DNA of 62,012 nt from Deltaproteobacteria bacterium (lineage in GTDB: Bacteria; Myxococcota; Myxococcia; Myxococcales; 40CM-4-68-19), in the NCBI GenBank assembly GCA_005879315.1, contig VBLC01000060.1:1-62012 (forward strand), in the 5' to 3' direction. The notes under the pieces are model-generated. The model did not search any database, was not told the DNA's origin, and saw only the letters and a program-made list of their open reading frames with translations. The number at the start of each line of letters is the position of its first letter. Positions within the stretch are counted from its first letter, which is position 1. Shown here piece after piece: positions 9,667 through 35,338 of the stretch. A program made the translations under genes and the position numbers.

Positions 9667-10095
9667 ATGAAGTTCTCCCGCAAGGCCGAGGCGGCTCTGC
9701 GGCGCCGGGGCGGGCGGATGACGCGCGCGCGGCGGGCGCTGCTCGAGCTGATCGAGAAGTCGCCGCGTCCGCTCGCTCCTCGCCAGCTGCACCGCGAGCT
9801 GCGGCGCGCTGGCGTGCGCGTCGATCTCGTCTCGGTCTACCGCAACGTCGCCGCGCTGCTCGAGCTGGGCCTGCTCCATCGCGTCCTCGGGTCCACCGCC
9901 GTGCGCCCCTGCGCCGAAGGCGAGCGCCCGGCGCGCTGCCACCACGCCGTCGTCTGCACCGCCTGCGGCAGCGCTCGCGAGTTTCATTCGCTGGCGCTGG
10001 AGCGCGCGCTCGGCGAGGTGCGGCGCGCCACCCGCTATCGCATCAGCGGCCATCTCCTCGAATTGCGCGGGCTCTGCGAGAGTTGCCGGAGCTGA
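9667..10095 (+). CDS. Fur-family metalloregulator (Zur/Mur/Nur type undetermined)
   Basis: A 142-residue Fur-superfamily repressor. The winged-helix domain (about 1-80) contains the recognition-helix segment DLVSVYRNVAALLELGLLHR. The C-terminal domain carries CHHAVVCTACG (H92, H93, C97, C100) and a terminal CESC (C137, C140), the paired CxxC structural zinc site of the family. The start is ATG at 9667, about 7 nt after a -10-like TAGAGG. The next gene, a ZIP-type transporter fusion, starts inside its stop codon (TGATG), so they form an operon. Context favours zinc or another divalent metal over iron, but the specificity is not proven. Confidence 0.88.
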   Translation: MKFSRKAEAALRRRGGRMTRARRALLELIEKSPRPLAPRQLHRELRRAGVRVDLVSVYRNVAALLELGLLHRVLGSTAVRPCAEGERPARCHHAVVCTACGSAREFHSLALERALGEVRRATRYRISGHLLELRGLCESCRS

Positions 10096-11588
10096 TGATG
10101 CTGCGGGCCGCCGGCCTCGCTGCTTTTTCCGCGCTGCTCGGCGGCGGCCTGGCGCTGGCGGCGCGGCGGCATCCGGCTCTCTTGGAGCGGACCCGCACCT
10201 TCGCCTTCGCCGCGGCGGCGGGAGTGGTCGCCTTCCATCTGCTCCCCGAGTTGCTGCCCGATCAGGGTGTGGTCGCGCTTCTCTGGATGGCCGCAGGATT
10301 CGCGCTGCCGTGGATTCTCGAAGTCGCCGCGCGCGCCGTCGGCCCTGGCCTCCTCGAGAGGAGCGGCTTCTCCGGCCTGCGGGTGGCGGCCGAGATCGGT
10401 TTCGCCGCGCTCCTCTTCCATTCCGTCGTCGAGGGGCTCGCGCTCGTCGCCGCCCTGGCGCGGCCGCGAGGGCAGGCCGATCTGGAGATCGCGCTCGTGG
10501 CCCACCACGCGCCGCTCACCGCGGCGGTCGTGCTGCCTTTCCTCGATCTGAAGGGACCTCGTTCGGCGGCGGCGCGGTCGCTGATGGTCGCCGCGGCAGG
10601 TCTCTTGGGCGCTGCGCTGAGCGGCGTCGTGCCCGGCCTCGCCGAAGGCGCTTTGTTGCAGAAGGCGACTGCGGTCACCGCCGGCGCGCTGCTGCACGTC
10701 GTGGCCGACGAGATCCGCACGCAGCGATTCGGCTCGCGCTGGGAGCGCGCCGCCGACCTGGGCGCCTGCGCCGTCGGCCTGCTGGTGGCGGGCGTGGGCG
10801 CGTTCCTCCATCTGCGCGACGGCCGCGAAACAGCGCCGCTGGTCGAGTTCATCCGCGTTCTGGCGGGAATTGCGCTCTCCTCTGCTCCGGCGCTGCTCTT
10901 CGGCGCAGCGGGAGGCGCGCTGCTGGCGGCGCGCGGGGTGGCCTCGCCGCTGCAGCGGGTCGATGCATTCCTGCTCGCCCTCGTCCTGCTCGGCCCCGCG
11001 GCGGCTCTTGCCCTCCTTCTGCTCGCCATTTTCCTCCGCGGCGGCCGCTCCACTGCGGGGGCGCGACCCTCTGCGCCGGCGGCGATGATCGGCGGGATCC
11101 GCGATCGCGCGCCGGCGTTGCTGGCGCTTTTGCTGGTCGCCGCTGGCCTCGAGGTTTCTGCGGCCCGGCTCGATCTGCATTCCGCCACCGGCTGGCTTCT
11201 CCTTGCGGCGCTCGGACTCTGCTCGCGCCTGGACGAGGCCGGCGCTGTGGCCGTCGCGGGAGTGCTGGTCCACAAAGGGCTCGATCCTGCCTTCGCGGTC
11301 GCGCTGCTCGCGGTCGGGCCGGCCACGCGAGCCGCGCCGCTGCGGGCGCTGCTCTCCACCGCCGTTGCCCTCGCCGCCGGCTCGCTGCTCTCGTTCTCCC
11401 GCCTTCTCGCCGGCGCCGGGCAGGGCGCCTTCTCGGAGGTGCACGAACCGATCACGGCGCAGCTGGCCGGCTCGCCCCTCGCCGCGGCGGCCGCGGCGGT
11501 GCTTGTCGCCCTCGCGCTCGGCACGCTCTGGACCGCGGGAGTGCGCGGCTGGTTCGCGCCGCTCCGTCACGGCCCGCGCGCGGCGTGA
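10095..11588 (+). CDS. ZIP-like metal transporter fused to a YraQ/ArsP-like permease domain
   Basis: A 497-residue polytopic membrane protein. The N-terminal half (about 1-245) reads as a ZIP transporter: H48 and E52 in FHLLPE, H109 and E113 in LFHSVVEGLAL, H137-H138 in VAHHAPLTAAVV and H201, D205, E206 in LLHVVADEI. The second half (about 250-497) has further helices, with LCSRLDEAGAVAVAGVLVHKG followed by AVALLAVGPATRAAP, resembling the repeat region of YraQ/ArsP-type permeases. The ATG at 10095 overlaps the regulator stop. The 3' end overlaps the convergent gene by 22 bp. The ZIP half is fairly secure; the second half is a weaker call. Confidence 0.72.
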   Translation: MMLRAAGLAAFSALLGGGLALAARRHPALLERTRTFAFAAAAGVVAFHLLPELLPDQGVVALLWMAAGFALPWILEVAARAVGPGLLERSGFSGLRVAAEIGFAALLFHSVVEGLALVAALARPRGQADLEIALVAHHAPLTAAVVLPFLDLKGPRSAAARSLMVAAAGLLGAALSGVVPGLAEGALLQKATAVTAGALLHVVADEIRTQRFGSRWERAADLGACAVGLLVAGVGAFLHLRDGRETAPLVEFIRVLAGIALSSAPALLFGAAGGALLAARGVASPLQRVDAFLLALVLLGPAAALALLLLAIFLRGGRSTAGARPSAPAAMIGGIRDRAPALLALLLVAAGLEVSAARLDLHSATGWLLLAALGLCSRLDEAGAVAVAGVLVHKGLDPAFAVALLAVGPATRAAPLRALLSTAVALAAGSLLSFSRLLAGAGQGAFSEVHEPITAQLAGSPLAAAAAAVLVALALGTLWTAGVRGWFAPLRHGPRAA

Positions 11589-12988
11589 ACCTGCAGCCGG
11601 CGCGCGGCGAAGCGCGCCTCGGCGCTCTGCGGATGGCGCTCGATCAGCTCGGCGAGGATCTTGTCGGACGTTGCCCGGTCGCCGAGGTTCTCCTCGTAGA
11701 TGCGCGCCGTCTGCAAGAAGGCGTGCGGCGCGAGCGGGCCTTCGGGCGCGATCTCCACTGCGCGGCGCAAGGCGAGAATCGCGAGCTGGCCGTGTCCGCG
11801 CTGCAGGCAGGCTTTGCTCAGCTCGATCCACGCCTGCGCCGAGAGCGCCGCGGGCGGCACTTCCTTTCCCGCTCTCCGCAGCACCTCCACCGCGCCTTCG
11901 ACGTCGCTCGAAGTCACCCTGCGCGCGAGCGCGAGCGCCGGTGGCATCGATTCCGCCTCGTGCGGCAACTCGATCTCCGCTAGAACGGGCGCAGGCGCGA
12001 CGGAAGCCGACCCGGCCATCTCCGGCTGCGCTTCTTGCTGCGGCTCGGGTTGCAGCTCGTCCAAGACCGGCACGAGATATTGTTCTTCGCCGCCGTAGCC
12101 GAGCTCGTCGCCGCGGGCGCGCACGAGAAGGCCGAGGGCGCGAAAGAGCATCAGCGGCGGATAGAGCAGGATGGTGTACTGAACCACGCCAGGCATCGCC
12201 ACCGTGCGATCGACGAAGAGCAGCAGGGAAAGCAGGGCCGACTCGCCGAGCGAGATGGCGAGAGCGAAGCCGGCGATCAGGACATAGTCGCGGCCCAGCT
12301 TGAGGGCATAGCCGATCACCACCAGCGGATTGAGCAGGTAGCGCAGCGGCGCGCCCAGCGCTCCCGCGAGGAGCGCCATGGGAAAGAGGAACGTGCCGAC
12401 GAGCAGCAGCAGCAGCACCACCGCCGCTTCCGGCCCGGTGGGCTGCAGCAGATCGCCGTTCCGGAAAAAGCTGCCGCGGCGGAAGACCACGTAGGCCACC
12501 ACCGGCCCGAAGGCCCAGATGCTGGCAAAGGCCGCGCGAATGACGGGGCCGAGGATGTCCTCGAAGAATCCGCGGAAGTCCCCGGGCGCGTGGAAGGTGT
12601 CCTCGCCGCGCGCCGTGCTGGTGGTGACGTGAAAGAGAGTCGCCAGGACCAGGCCTTCGGCGAGCAGCGTGCCCAGCGCGCCCGTGCCGATGATCCAGAG
12701 CACCAGGGCGCAGGCGACCGAGGTGAGGAAGCCCTCCTTGTGGAAGGGCCAGCGCACGGCCTCTCTCAATGTCTGCACGGTGAAGGGATTCTTCAGCGCC
12801 CGCCGCACGCGGATGTCGGTCGCCGCGCCGCCGCACAGCTTGCAGACGGCGATGCGGCCGTAGCCGGCGGCGCGCGAGACCGCGCACTGCCGGCAGAGCG
12901 CGGAGCCGCAGGTGCTGCAGCGCCAGCCGGCCTCGGCCTCCGGATGCGTGCTGCAAGAGGGGCCGAGCATCGAGGAAGGCGAGCTCAT
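11567..12988 (-). CDS. Zinc-ribbon membrane protein with C-terminal TPR-like region
   Basis: A 473-residue protein in three parts. Residues about 10-55 hold a cysteine cluster (C12, H15, C24, C27, C32, C35, C49, C52), a B-box-like double zinc site. Residues about 85-310 hold several hydrophobic segments of a Yip1-like or DUF4013-like membrane domain. The last about 130 residues, after an acidic Pro/Gln linker, resemble tetratricopeptide helices (WIELSKACLQRGHGQLAILALRRAVEIAPEGP). The ATG at 12988 overlaps the rpiA stop (ATGA). Function unknown; such proteins are common in myxobacteria. Confidence 0.75.
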   Translation of the reverse strand: MSSPSSMLGPSCSTHPEAEAGWRCSTCGSALCRQCAVSRAAGYGRIAVCKLCGGAATDIRVRRALKNPFTVQTLREAVRWPFHKEGFLTSVACALVLWIIGTGALGTLLAEGLVLATLFHVTTSTARGEDTFHAPGDFRGFFEDILGPVIRAAFASIWAFGPVVAYVVFRRGSFFRNGDLLQPTGPEAAVVLLLLLVGTFLFPMALLAGALGAPLRYLLNPLVVIGYALKLGRDYVLIAGFALAISLGESALLSLLLFVDRTVAMPGVVQYTILLYPPLMLFRALGLLVRARGDELGYGGEEQYLVPVLDELQPEPQQEAQPEMAGSASVAPAPVLAEIELPHEAESMPPALALARRVTSSDVEGAVEVLRRAGKEVPPAALSAQAWIELSKACLQRGHGQLAILALRRAVEIAPEGPLAPHAFLQTARIYEENLGDRATSDKILAELIERHPQSAEARFAARRLQVHAARGP

Positions 12989-32280: not shown

Positions 32281-32985
32281 ATGCTGGAGACGGCAGGGCG
32301 GGCGCTCTTTCGCTGGCGGAGCTTCACTCCTCTGGCGCTCCTCGCGGTTGCCATTCCTTTGCTCTGGCGCAGCCGCGGGACGGCGAGCGCGCTGTGGTAC
32401 GTCGGCGGACTTTTGCTCTGTCTTTCCGGACAGGCCCTGCGCGCCTGGGTGCTCGGGCTCGTGCCCGAGGGCACCTCGGGGCAGAACGAGACGCTGGAAG
32501 CCGATCGGCTCAACACCACCGGCCCCTACGCCCTGATGCGCAATCCTCTCTATCTGGGGAATCTCGCCATCACCCTCGGCCTCTGCCTGATCGCGCACGA
32601 CCTCTGGCTGCTCGCCGCGGTGGCGCTGCTCTTCGCGCTCCAGTACGCGGCGATCATCGCTGCGGAAGAGAAGTTCCTCGCCGAGCGGTTCGGCGAGCAG
32701 TACCAAGCCTATCGCGCCGGGGTGCCGCGATTCTGGCCGCGCCTTGCGAAGATGCATGCCGCTCCCTGGAACTGGAAGCGCGCGCTGAAGAAGGAGCACA
32801 ACCCTGCCGCGGCGTGGATCGCCATCGCCGTCGTTCTTCTCGGGCTCGATCACCGGACGCGCTGGCCCTACCTGCTCGCGCTTGCGCTCCTGGCCGCCGC
32901 CTGGCTCTCGGTGAAAGGCTGGAAGCACCGCTGGCTGCGCGGCAGCTTCGCCGCGGACTTGCGGCGGCGGCTCAGCGCGCGCTGA
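32281..32985 (+). CDS. Isoprenylcysteine/phospholipid methyltransferase-like membrane protein
   Basis: A 234-residue membrane protein. Hydrophobic helices alternate with the conserved stretch TTGPYALMRNPLYLGNLAITLGL and the later EEKFLAERFGEQYQAYRAGVPRFWP. This is the SAM-binding signature of ICMT/PEMT-type methyltransferases (RNPLYLG ... E...Y..Y). Bacterial members methylate unknown small molecules or lipids; protein isoprenylcysteine is unlikely to be the substrate. It is divergent from the msbA-like gene and overlaps the end of the convergent kinase gene by 14 bp. Confidence 0.8.
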   Translation: MLETAGRALFRWRSFTPLALLAVAIPLLWRSRGTASALWYVGGLLLCLSGQALRAWVLGLVPEGTSGQNETLEADRLNTTGPYALMRNPLYLGNLAITLGLCLIAHDLWLLAAVALLFALQYAAIIAAEEKFLAERFGEQYQAYRAGVPRFWPRLAKMHAAPWNWKRALKKEHNPAAAWIAIAVVLLGLDHRTRWPYLLALALLAAAWLSVKGWKHRWLRGSFAADLRRRLSAR

Positions 32986-34000
32986 TCTCGACGATCTCGT
33001 GCGGCGGCAGATGGAGAAGTCCCCGCCGCACCGCCACCAGCTCGCGCGCCAGCTCCACGGCCGTGGCAGGCCGATCGTCGGGACTCTTCGCCAGGAGCCG
33101 TTCGGTCAACGTGCACAAGGCAGGAGGCGCTCCGGGATTGATCCGCTGGAGGGCGGGCGGCTCGTTGCCGACGATCGCCTCGAGCAACTCCAGCTGATTG
33201 ACCTGGGCGAAAGCGGGGCGGCCGGCGATCAGCTCGTAGAGCGTCGTGCCCAAGGCGTAGAGATCGCTGCGGCGGTCGAGCTCCTCGCCGCGCGCCTGCT
33301 CGGGGGACATGAAGCGATAGGTTCCGACCACGCGGCCGTGGTCGGTGATCCGATCGTCGGCGAAGCGCTTGGCGAGCCCGAAGTCCACCAGGATGGCCCG
33401 GTGACCGGGAGTGACGAGGACGTTGGAGGGCTTGATGTCGCGGTGGAGCAGGCCGCGGGCGTGGATGAAGGCGAGGCCGTCGCAGACTTGCGCGAGCGCC
33501 TCGCAGAGGGCGGCGAGGCGGAGCGGCTGGTTCTGCTCGACCTGCTCCTCTTCGCTGAGCAAGGCGTCGACGCTGGTCTCGAGCGTGAGCCGGCGCGCCC
33601 GGGCCGCGGCGAGCAGCGCGCCGGAGTCGGGCTCGGCGAAGAGGACGTCGAGGTCGACGCCCTCGGGCGCGTCCGATTCCGGCCCCGGCTCGAGCGGCTG
33701 CTCGGCGGCGACCGTCAGCCATTCGCGCAGCGCCAGGCCGTCGACGAATTCCATCGAGAGCCAGGGGATGGCGTCCTCCTCGCCGGCATCGAGGACGCGG
33801 ACGATGTTGGGATGGTGCAGGTTGCGGAGGGCGCCGAACTCGCGCTGCAGGCGGCGGGTCGCGGCAGGGTCGGTGCCCGGAGGGAGCATCTTCAGGGCGA
33901 CGGTGACGCCGGTCCTGGTGTCGAGCGCGCGGAAGACCGCCCCCAGGCCGCCGCGGCCGACCTGGCGCTCGAGTCGAAATGGACCGAACCAACCTCGCAT
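32972..34000 (-). CDS. Soluble Hanks-type Ser/Thr protein kinase with hinge insertion
   Basis: A 342-residue kinase. The Gly loop GRGGLGAVF (15-23), ATP lysine K37 in VALKMLP, catalytic loop HRDIKPSN (186-193), metal-binding D206 in VDFGLAK and the GTYRFMSPEQA activation segment are all intact. Residues about 96-160 are an acidic insertion, rich in Glu and Asp, just after the hinge where most kinases have a short loop. There is no transmembrane segment or sensor domain, so it is probably cytoplasmic and partner-controlled. The start is ATG at 34000. Confidence 0.9.
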   Translation of the reverse strand: MRGWFGPFRLERQVGRGGLGAVFRALDTRTGVTVALKMLPPGTDPAATRRLQREFGALRNLHHPNIVRVLDAGEEDAIPWLSMEFVDGLALREWLTVAAEQPLEPGPESDAPEGVDLDVLFAEPDSGALLAAARARRLTLETSVDALLSEEEQVEQNQPLRLAALCEALAQVCDGLAFIHARGLLHRDIKPSNVLVTPGHRAILVDFGLAKRFADDRITDHGRVVGTYRFMSPEQARGEELDRRSDLYALGTTLYELIAGRPAFAQVNQLELLEAIVGNEPPALQRINPGAPPALCTLTERLLAKSPDDRPATAVELARELVAVRRGLLHLPPHEIVEISAR

Positions 34001-34066
34001 CGGGGCAACAGTAGCCCAGCAGGAGGGCTGTGCCGAAATGTCAGACTGCAGGTCTACGATGGCAAG

Positions 34067-34495
34067 ATGGAAAACCAAAAACCGGGCCCGGGCCCGGGCT
34101 CGTACTCGGTCGCGGGAACGGGGACGCCAACGGGCGCGGAACAGATTCTGTTCGACCATGAAAAACTCGAGGTCTATGTGGTTGCGCGCGAATTCCTCGA
34201 AATGACGTACCCATTCCTTCGACGGAAGATGTCGCGCTCGCTTCGAGAGCAATTCGAAAGGGCGTCCTTGAGCATCGTCGCGAACATTGCGGAAGGCGCT
34301 GGCAAAACTTCCCGAGCAGACAAACAACGCCTCTATGAAATCGGCCGTGGCAGCACGACCGAAACCGCGGCCCTTCTCGATGCCATGCGCAGCCGCGAAG
34401 CCATCGCGGTGGAGGAATACCAGCGAGCGCGGTCGCTGCTCATCCGCGTGAAACAGATGCTCAGCCGCCTGTCCGGACCGCCGCGTAGCACTTGA
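34067..34495 (+). CDS. Four-helix-bundle protein (23S rRNA intervening-sequence / S23 family)
   Basis: A 142-residue protein. From about residue 27 it reads FDHEKLEVYVVAREFLEM, then REQFERASLSIVANIAEGAGK and helices ending RVKQMLSRL. This is the S23/IVP four-helix-bundle family, found as an ORF in intervening sequences of 23S rRNA and as orphan genes. Here the gene is orphan, with no rRNA nearby. The first 25 residues (ENQKPGPGPGSYS...) are translated inverted repeat, so the true start may differ, although no better in-frame start was seen. Avd proteins of diversity-generating retroelements share the fold, but no reverse transcriptase is present. Confidence 0.82.
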   Translation: MENQKPGPGPGSYSVAGTGTPTGAEQILFDHEKLEVYVVAREFLEMTYPFLRRKMSRSLREQFERASLSIVANIAEGAGKTSRADKQRLYEIGRGSTTETAALLDAMRSREAIAVEEYQRARSLLIRVKQMLSRLSGPPRST

Positions 34496-34566
34496 GTCGG
34501 CCGCACCCGTCGGCGTCCACGTACCCGTGAACGTCGGCGAACCCGGGCCCGGGCCCGGCTTTTGGT
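34074..34566. mobile_element. Inverted-repeat-bounded element carrying the four-helix-bundle gene
   Basis: Imperfect inverted repeats of about 66 bp lie at 34074-34139 and 34501-34566. Their outer core ACCAAAA-(A/G)-CCGGGCCCGGG... is almost identical. Their inner part (GGGACGCCAACGGGCGCGG against GTGGACGCCGACGGGTGCGG) matches at most positions. The heptamer GGTCTAC occurs outside both ends (34051-34057 and 34564-34570) in direct orientation, which could be an old target duplication. No transposase is present; movement would need help in trans. The unit lies between a kinase gene and uppS. Confidence 0.6.
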
Positions 34567-34579
34567 CTACATTGCAGGA

Positions 34580-35338
34580 GTGCCGCGCATCGCGAGAGAC
34601 CTCCAGGCCCTCAAGGCCGAAGTCCTCCAGCGGCCCCTCCCCCGCCACGTCGGCATCATCATGGACGGCAACGGCCGCTGGGCGGCGCAGCGCGGGCTGC
34701 CGCGGATCGAGGGCCACCGCAAAGGCTCCGACTCGGTCAGCGAAGTGACCCGCGCCGCGCGCCGGCTCGGCCTGCCGGCGCTGACTCTCTACGCGTTCTC
34801 CGCGCAGAACTGGGAGCGCCCGCCCGACGAGGTCGAAGGCCTGATGGACCTCCTCCGCGAATATCTCTTCAAGGAGCGCGCCGAGATCATGGACAACGAC
34901 ATCCGGCTGCACGCCATCGGCGACCTCGACCGCCTGCCCGCCCGGGTCCGCGAGCCCCTCGACGAGCTCCGCCGCGACAGCGCCGGCAACTTGAAAATGA
35001 TTCTCACTCTCGCTCTCAGTTACGGCGGCCGCGAGGAGATCATCGCCATGGTCCGCAAAGTGGCCGAGGACAAGCTGCGCCCCGAGCAGATCGACGCCAA
35101 GGCCGTCGAGGACCGCCTCTGGACCGCGGGCCTCCCGCCGCTGGAATTGGTCGTGCGCACCAGCGGCGAGGTGCGCGTCTCCAACTTCCTTCTCTGGCAG
35201 CTCGCCTACGCCGAGATCCACCTCAGCGAGACCCTCTGGCCCGACTTCGGCGAGCTCGATCTGCTGCTCGCGCTGGAGGACTTCCAGCGCCGCGAGCGTC
35301 GCTTCGGCAAGACCAGTGCGCAGCTGCGCCGCTCCTGA
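34580..35338 (+). CDS. uppS: Undecaprenyl diphosphate synthase
   Basis: A 252-residue cis-prenyltransferase building the C55 carrier lipid for peptidoglycan and O-antigen synthesis. GIIMDGNGRWA with catalytic Asp29, EGHRKGSDSV, YAFSAQNWERP and the C-terminal RTSGEVRVSNFLLWQLAYAE are diagnostic. The start is uncertain: GTG at 34580 fits the usual N-terminal length, but its AGGA lies directly against it. TTG at 34562 is in frame but falls inside the inverted repeat of the preceding element. That element appears to have displaced the native upstream region. cdsA starts 4 bp after its stop. Confidence 0.94.
   Translation: MPRIARDLQALKAEVLQRPLPRHVGIIMDGNGRWAAQRGLPRIEGHRKGSDSVSEVTRAARRLGLPALTLYAFSAQNWERPPDEVEGLMDLLREYLFKERAEIMDNDIRLHAIGDLDRLPARVREPLDELRRDSAGNLKMILTLALSYGGREEIIAMVRKVAEDKLRPEQIDAKAVEDRLWTAGLPPLELVVRTSGEVRVSNFLLWQLAYAEIHLSETLWPDFGELDLLLALEDFQRRERRFGKTSAQLRRS

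Follow-up and report, generated by a model that had tools for sequence, protein, structure and literature searches.

An S23 gene in an intergenic hairpin of a Myxococcales genome: a candidate relative of rRNA intervening sequences

Introduction

Intervening sequences (IVSs) in the ribosomal RNA (rRNA) genes of Leptospira, Coxiella and the candidate phyla radiation (CPR) carry a gene of the S23 family in the loop of a stem made by terminal inverted repeats, and occur in forms with and without the open reading frame (ORF). Both features are met again in the DNA described here, a contig of 62,012 nt (VBLC01000060.1, the window, C38 in our numbering) belonging to a 4.43-Mb metagenome-assembled genome (MAG) of a deltaproteobacterium (GCA_005879315.1, G000), whose nearest relatives are Myxococcales MAGs. 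Within the window an S23/IVP gene is held between two inverted arms. Unlike the rRNA IVSs, this element is intergenic and is a member of a dispersed family of imperfect palindromes, here termed family A. We lean towards regarding it as an IVS-like hairpin cassette that lies outside rRNA. Where rRNA intervening sequences and S23 proteins come from, and what they do, has been in question for decades. IVP ORFs are known in both 16S and 23S insertions of CPR bacteria (PMC11270868). In the 23S IVS of Coxiella, tandem GACAGAT heptamers lie upstream of the S23 ORF in a number that varies between strains, which was treated as a local oddity (PMC4990558).

Several other systems resemble family A in part. 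Repetitive extragenic palindromic (REP) sequences, REPINs and enterobacterial repetitive intergenic consensus (ERIC) sequences are likewise imperfect palindromes (about 125 nt in family A), intergenic, and found as single arms and as pairs; they differ from family A, whose arms of about 60 nt keep a 6-nt register and in one copy enclose S23 in the loop. In contrast to the system of REPINs and REP-associated tyrosine transposases (RAYTs), no RAYT gene is flanked by a family A repeat. Miniature inverted-repeat transposable elements (MITEs) share the short length, dispersal, inverted ends and non-autonomous appearance, yet family A shows no target duplication and no parent transposon was found. 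The accessory protein Avd of diversity-generating retroelements has an S23-like four-helix bundle fold; unlike such retroelements, G000 is devoid of a reverse transcriptase. Cyanobacterial short tandemly repeated repetitive (STRR) heptamers, including those in the rnpB hairpin, are short tandem repeats placed in hairpins, and we know of no link between them and S23 so far.

Results

A preliminary description of the window, made from its letters alone, proposed that imperfect inverted repeats of about 66 bp with a conspicuous core enclose an S23/IVP gene whose N-terminus is translated from the repeat. Each part of this was borne out. The arms are 66 nt long, 82% complementary and 361 nt apart, and CCGGGCCCGGGCCCGGG of the left arm has its reverse complement in the right. 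The ORF matches PF05635 (E 1.5e-19; 70.6 bits against a curated cut-off of 33.8) and TIGR02436 (E 1.7e-17; 63.6 bits against 24), and a profile of S23 relatives matches the solved XCC0516 (2gsc) at 3.7e-18. AlphaFold2 predicts four long helices in aa 35–136 (mean pLDDT 89.7) and neither helix nor strand in the first 29 residues. By profile and predicted structure the protein is a member of the S23/IVP family with a four-helix bundle; the solved relative of the S23 protein is a toroidal pentamer. With no usable in-frame start between the ATG at 34067 and the domain, the left arm encodes about 25 N-terminal residues. Close relatives of the protein were not found among the viral contigs searched. 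The inverted-repeat score of the flanks of the S23 domain reaches z 13.9, while only one of the 33 gene-like ORFs of the window exceeds z 5 (maximum 5.9). The expectation that the transcript folds as a long hairpin also stands, since RNA folding of 34040–34580 gives −256.9 kcal/mol (z −7.07), a value equalled by none of 100 shuffles. The GC stem with its A/T-runs is terminator-like on both strands. An Rfam search of 33900–34700 gave no match and the flanking genes are a kinase gene and uppS, which places the element outside rRNA genes.

A search for other copies of the 66-bp ends, which the preliminary description had proposed, located about 14 further places in G000. Ten of these are full hairpins of about 117–150 nt without a gene, with a loop of about 0–40 nt where the window copy holds the S23 domain. 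Three are single arms (one on C22 and two on C52), and one is a partial copy at the end of a contig, which probably represents a variant form of the C118 copy. Each arm is a series of hexamers in which CG recurs every six bases. These CG sites are conserved, mismatches between arms cluster at mid-hexamer, and left and right arms form distinct lineages. All these data are MAG sequences. Contig C92 (L020, 1–60) begins inside a family A hairpin, and its flank is similar, with some differences, to that of C118 (L018, about 212–340); the likely cause is either variation among strains or a break of the assembly within the repeat.

In the lineage of the window, a family A palindrome has inserted into the spacer that separates a kinase gene from uppS. 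In three genomes of the same genus (G004, G005 and G006) the two genes stand next to each other across a hairpin-free spacer of about 60 bp, which is close to the length left in G000 after removal of the cassette. A 66-nt single-arm copy on C52, lying directly after a stop codon, is missing in nine relatives that match the locus contiguously. The full hairpin on C101 is absent from G001 and G003, an empty site that rests on contiguous matches, the joint alignment with the relatives being poor. Together, the repeated ends and the empty sites support the proposal that S23 genes exist as small inverted-repeat units outside rRNA. The predicted empty site of the window copy is found, but intergenic sequence in the relatives has diverged too far for an exact join of 34050 to 34571 to be placed. 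GGTCTAC does flank the element on both sides in direct orientation, as had been pointed out; its value as a target-site mark did not hold up, since direct repeats beside family A copies are no longer than those between mismatched flanks (P 0.46) and the left GGTCTAC is set 17–23 nt apart from the arm. No target duplication is seen in the family, and the GGTCTAC pair is probably due to chance.

Family A is one of several settings of S23 in this genome. G000 holds about 15 S23 genes, in several unrelated inverted repeats, and gene counts among relatives are patchy (14, 12, 9 and 3 in G000 to G003, and none in G004 to G006). A second multi-copy family, family D, is about 650 bp long and carries S23 between inverted repeats of about 100 bp. 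At least nine S23-bearing copies, with ends 92–98% identical, lie at unrelated loci, and for one of them the site is empty in G004, G005 and G008. Pairwise dN/dS among the family D S23 genes is mostly 0.01–0.3, and up to 0.36 with the frame-shifted copy on C83; judged by these ratios, the genes are under strong purifying selection. Two S23 lineages, dS about 1–3 apart, live in nearly identical family D ends. One copy, on C74, holds both lineages in convergent orientation, which suggests that the single-gene copies derive by deletion or inversion. The number of GGGAAA units also differs among copies.

Start regions of S23 genes in G000, G001 and G002 (L024, L025, L027, L031, L033, L078, L087, L094, L099, L190, L197 and L199) place the ribosome-binding site and the start codon inside a nearly perfect hairpin of about 20–25 bp. 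Between copies, 99.2% of cells in these hairpins are paired and 11 carry double, compensatory changes, a result reached in none of 500 shuffles. Translation of S23 in these copies seems to be locked. The window copy has no such start-region hairpin. A nested hairpin, GCAGGCGC-GCGCCAACGCCTGCGGCGTTGTCACTG-GCGCCTGC, is seen in each family D arm (L113–L121). Two copies have a compensatory replacement of C-G by T-A in it, and a similar motif precedes S23 in G001 and G002 (L078, L087 and L099). Convergent S23 gene pairs are frequent (G033, G043, G049, G028 and C74 of G000), and in such pairs the S23 gene itself would be part of a larger palindrome.

S23 loci, whether intergenic or in 16S rRNA, tend to sit between arms made of 6–8-nt repeats. 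Among Myxococcales, 24 of 39 S23 loci have flanking repeats with a period of exactly 6, exceeding all 188 control blocks (0/188), and two further loci have period 7. A genome scan with S23 reached Chitinophagaceae, Patescibacteria, Meiothermus/Calidithermus, Nitrospiria and others. For a census, S23 genes were taken by profile from 23 scanned genomes and 67 loci from 22 of them were analysed, an inverted repeat being counted at z >5 and above all 40 shuffles. Inverted repeats surround 43 of the 67 loci and 1 of 124 control positions taken from those loci (Fisher 3e-24), where controls are mostly coding positions and the genomes, having been reached via S23 similarity, are a non-random sample. 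At least one such locus is present in 19 of the 22 genomes. The arms are degenerate tandem repeats, with a best period of 7 in 28, 8 in 12 and 9 in 2 of the 42, and the periodicity has P≤0.01 in 40/42. Our searches, which covered an open-access library but neither subscription papers nor preprints, turned up no account of intergenic S23 cassettes or of this repeat rule.

Several census loci of Woesebacteria, Levybacteria and Parcubacteria are situated within the 16S rRNA gene, at its V1 loop. Their flanks are 16S sequence, the S23 gene occupies the loop, and the stem consists of repeats such as GTTAACAAATTAAC. With their S23 loop and repeat stems, these rRNA insertions are built on the same plan as the intergenic cassettes, which ties classical IVSs to the latter and for which the Coxiella heptamers provide independent support. 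V1-loop elements L332, L336, L337 and L339, as well as L223, L226, L232, L236 and L244, share the ends GGTCCGYAGGACCGAAC / TGTCCRYAGGACAGAAC. The preliminary description was thus right in part; it missed the gene-less majority of family A and the tandem-repeat arms common to several phyla and to 16S insertions.

Discussion

Dispersal, insertion, gene-bearing and gene-less forms, a conserved protein in family D and a shared arm architecture are all observed. One tentative reading, slightly less likely than not, is that S23/IVP may be the protein dedicated to a class of mobile hairpins that spans phyla and has stems of 6–8-nt repeats. The rRNA IVSs would then be just those members of the class whose insertion site was rRNA, with gene-less hairpins as non-autonomous derivatives moved in trans by S23 and host enzymes. 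On the IVS-like cassette reading, which we prefer, S23 would most likely bind the folded stem of its own family, as RNA or single-stranded DNA, and help the hairpin to persist or replicate, acting in trans as well on gene-less copies, with strand transfer left to a host enzyme or another element. The elements would be selfish and persist in places that tolerate a hairpin, such as just after stop codons, between convergent genes and at the tips of rRNA hairpins. Slippage in the tandem repeats may keep changing the arms, and recombination between arms could invert or delete the loop.

A number of results weigh against the cassette reading. By the test used, 24 of the 67 census loci have no inverted repeat. 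Movement of these elements has not been observed, a search of G000 for reverse transcriptase (RVT_1) gave no match, and no transposase or reverse transcriptase was found linked to the arms in that genome. Target duplications were not found at family A copies or at their empty sites. Compensatory covariation was not found between family A arms, and agreement between the two arms of one copy is slightly lower than when arms are exchanged among copies (476 vs 492.6, P 0.011), so that selection on a paired stem is unsupported for this family. Family A is found in the G000 MAG only, and as just one of its approximately 14 copies has the gene, S23 may be a late passenger there.

Alternatively, the hairpins could be ordinary REP/ERIC-like repeats that possibly serve as bidirectional terminators and are moved in trans by an HUH enzyme (Y1/RAYT), with S23 as cargo once it had landed in a loop. 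This main rival is unlikely, though it draws on real likenesses: a GC stem with a T-run on both strands, locations behind stop codons, the occurrence of single arms as well as doublets as in REP/REPIN, and the number of Y1_Tnp (HUH) genes, which is 13 in G000 and 13–20 across the four S23-rich genomes of G000 to G006 but 1–4 in the three that are S23-free. Nevertheless, hexamer repeats and the arms of families A and D are absent from all 13 Y1_Tnp loci of G000, which speaks against a linked RAYT, and cargo status leaves unexplained both the presence of S23 between such arms in several phyla and its conservation within family D. The repeats might instead have arisen in place, by slippage and hairpin-templated repair around S23 genes, with no mobile element involved. 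Degenerate tandem arms whose unit differs by locus, and the varying number of GGGAAA units in family D, would fit such an origin. Gene-less family A hairpins are dispersed with clean empty sites, however, and family D copies have 92–98% identical arms at unrelated loci. These largely refute it for both families and make it improbable overall, while it could hold for single-copy S23 loci of other phyla. Descent from a conventional transposon as a MITE, with GGTCTAC as the target duplication, would account for the inverted ends and the direct heptamers. It is very improbable, given that family A has no target duplication, that the left heptamer is separated from its arm, and that the genome matches comprise hairpins, single arms and the S23 copy only, with no longer element joining the same ends to a transposase.

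If S23 genes everywhere ride in short-tandem-repeat hairpins, the family gains a testable role, namely binding its own repeat stem, and a source in a family of dispersed elements. It would also provide a rule for finding further members, among them gene-less ones that at present pass for anonymous intergenic repeats, and a possible explanation for some of the short-tandem-repeat hairpins in bacterial genomes. The S23 inserts of ribosomal RNA look like just one visible portion of a broader group of mobile hairpins.

Features of the window locus

The coordinates of the element and of its two neighbors are collected in Table 1.

Table 1. Positions of the hairpin cassette and adjoining genes in the window
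Feature	Position	Strand	Remarks
Ser/Thr kinase-like gene, flanking	32972–34000	−	start inferred; adjoins uppS in relatives
GGTCTAC, left flank	34051–34057	+	target duplication unsupported
S23/IVP (23S_rRNA_IVP) gene	34067–34495	+	142 aa; domain aa 32–133
N-terminal leader, about 28 aa	34067–34150	+	mostly translated left arm; no predicted structure
Left arm, imperfect palindrome	34074–34139	+	66 nt, hexamer-phased, CG every 6 nt
GC core of left arm, CCGGGCCCGGGCCCGGG	34082–34098	+	A5 (34077–34081) just before
Hairpin loop holding the S23 domain	34140–34500	+	about 0–40 nt in gene-less copies
Right arm	34501–34566	−	66 nt, 82% complementary to left arm
GC core of right arm, reverse complement of CCGGGCCCGGGCCCGGG	34542–34558	−	followed by T4 (34560–34563)
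GGTCTAC, right flank, adjoining the T-run	34564–34570	+	target duplication unsupported
uppS, polyprenyl diphosphate synthase, flanking	34580–35338	+	GTG start inferred

Apart from the S23 gene, the one gene-like ORF in the window whose flanks score above z 5 for inverted repeats (5.9) extends from 10035 to 12956.
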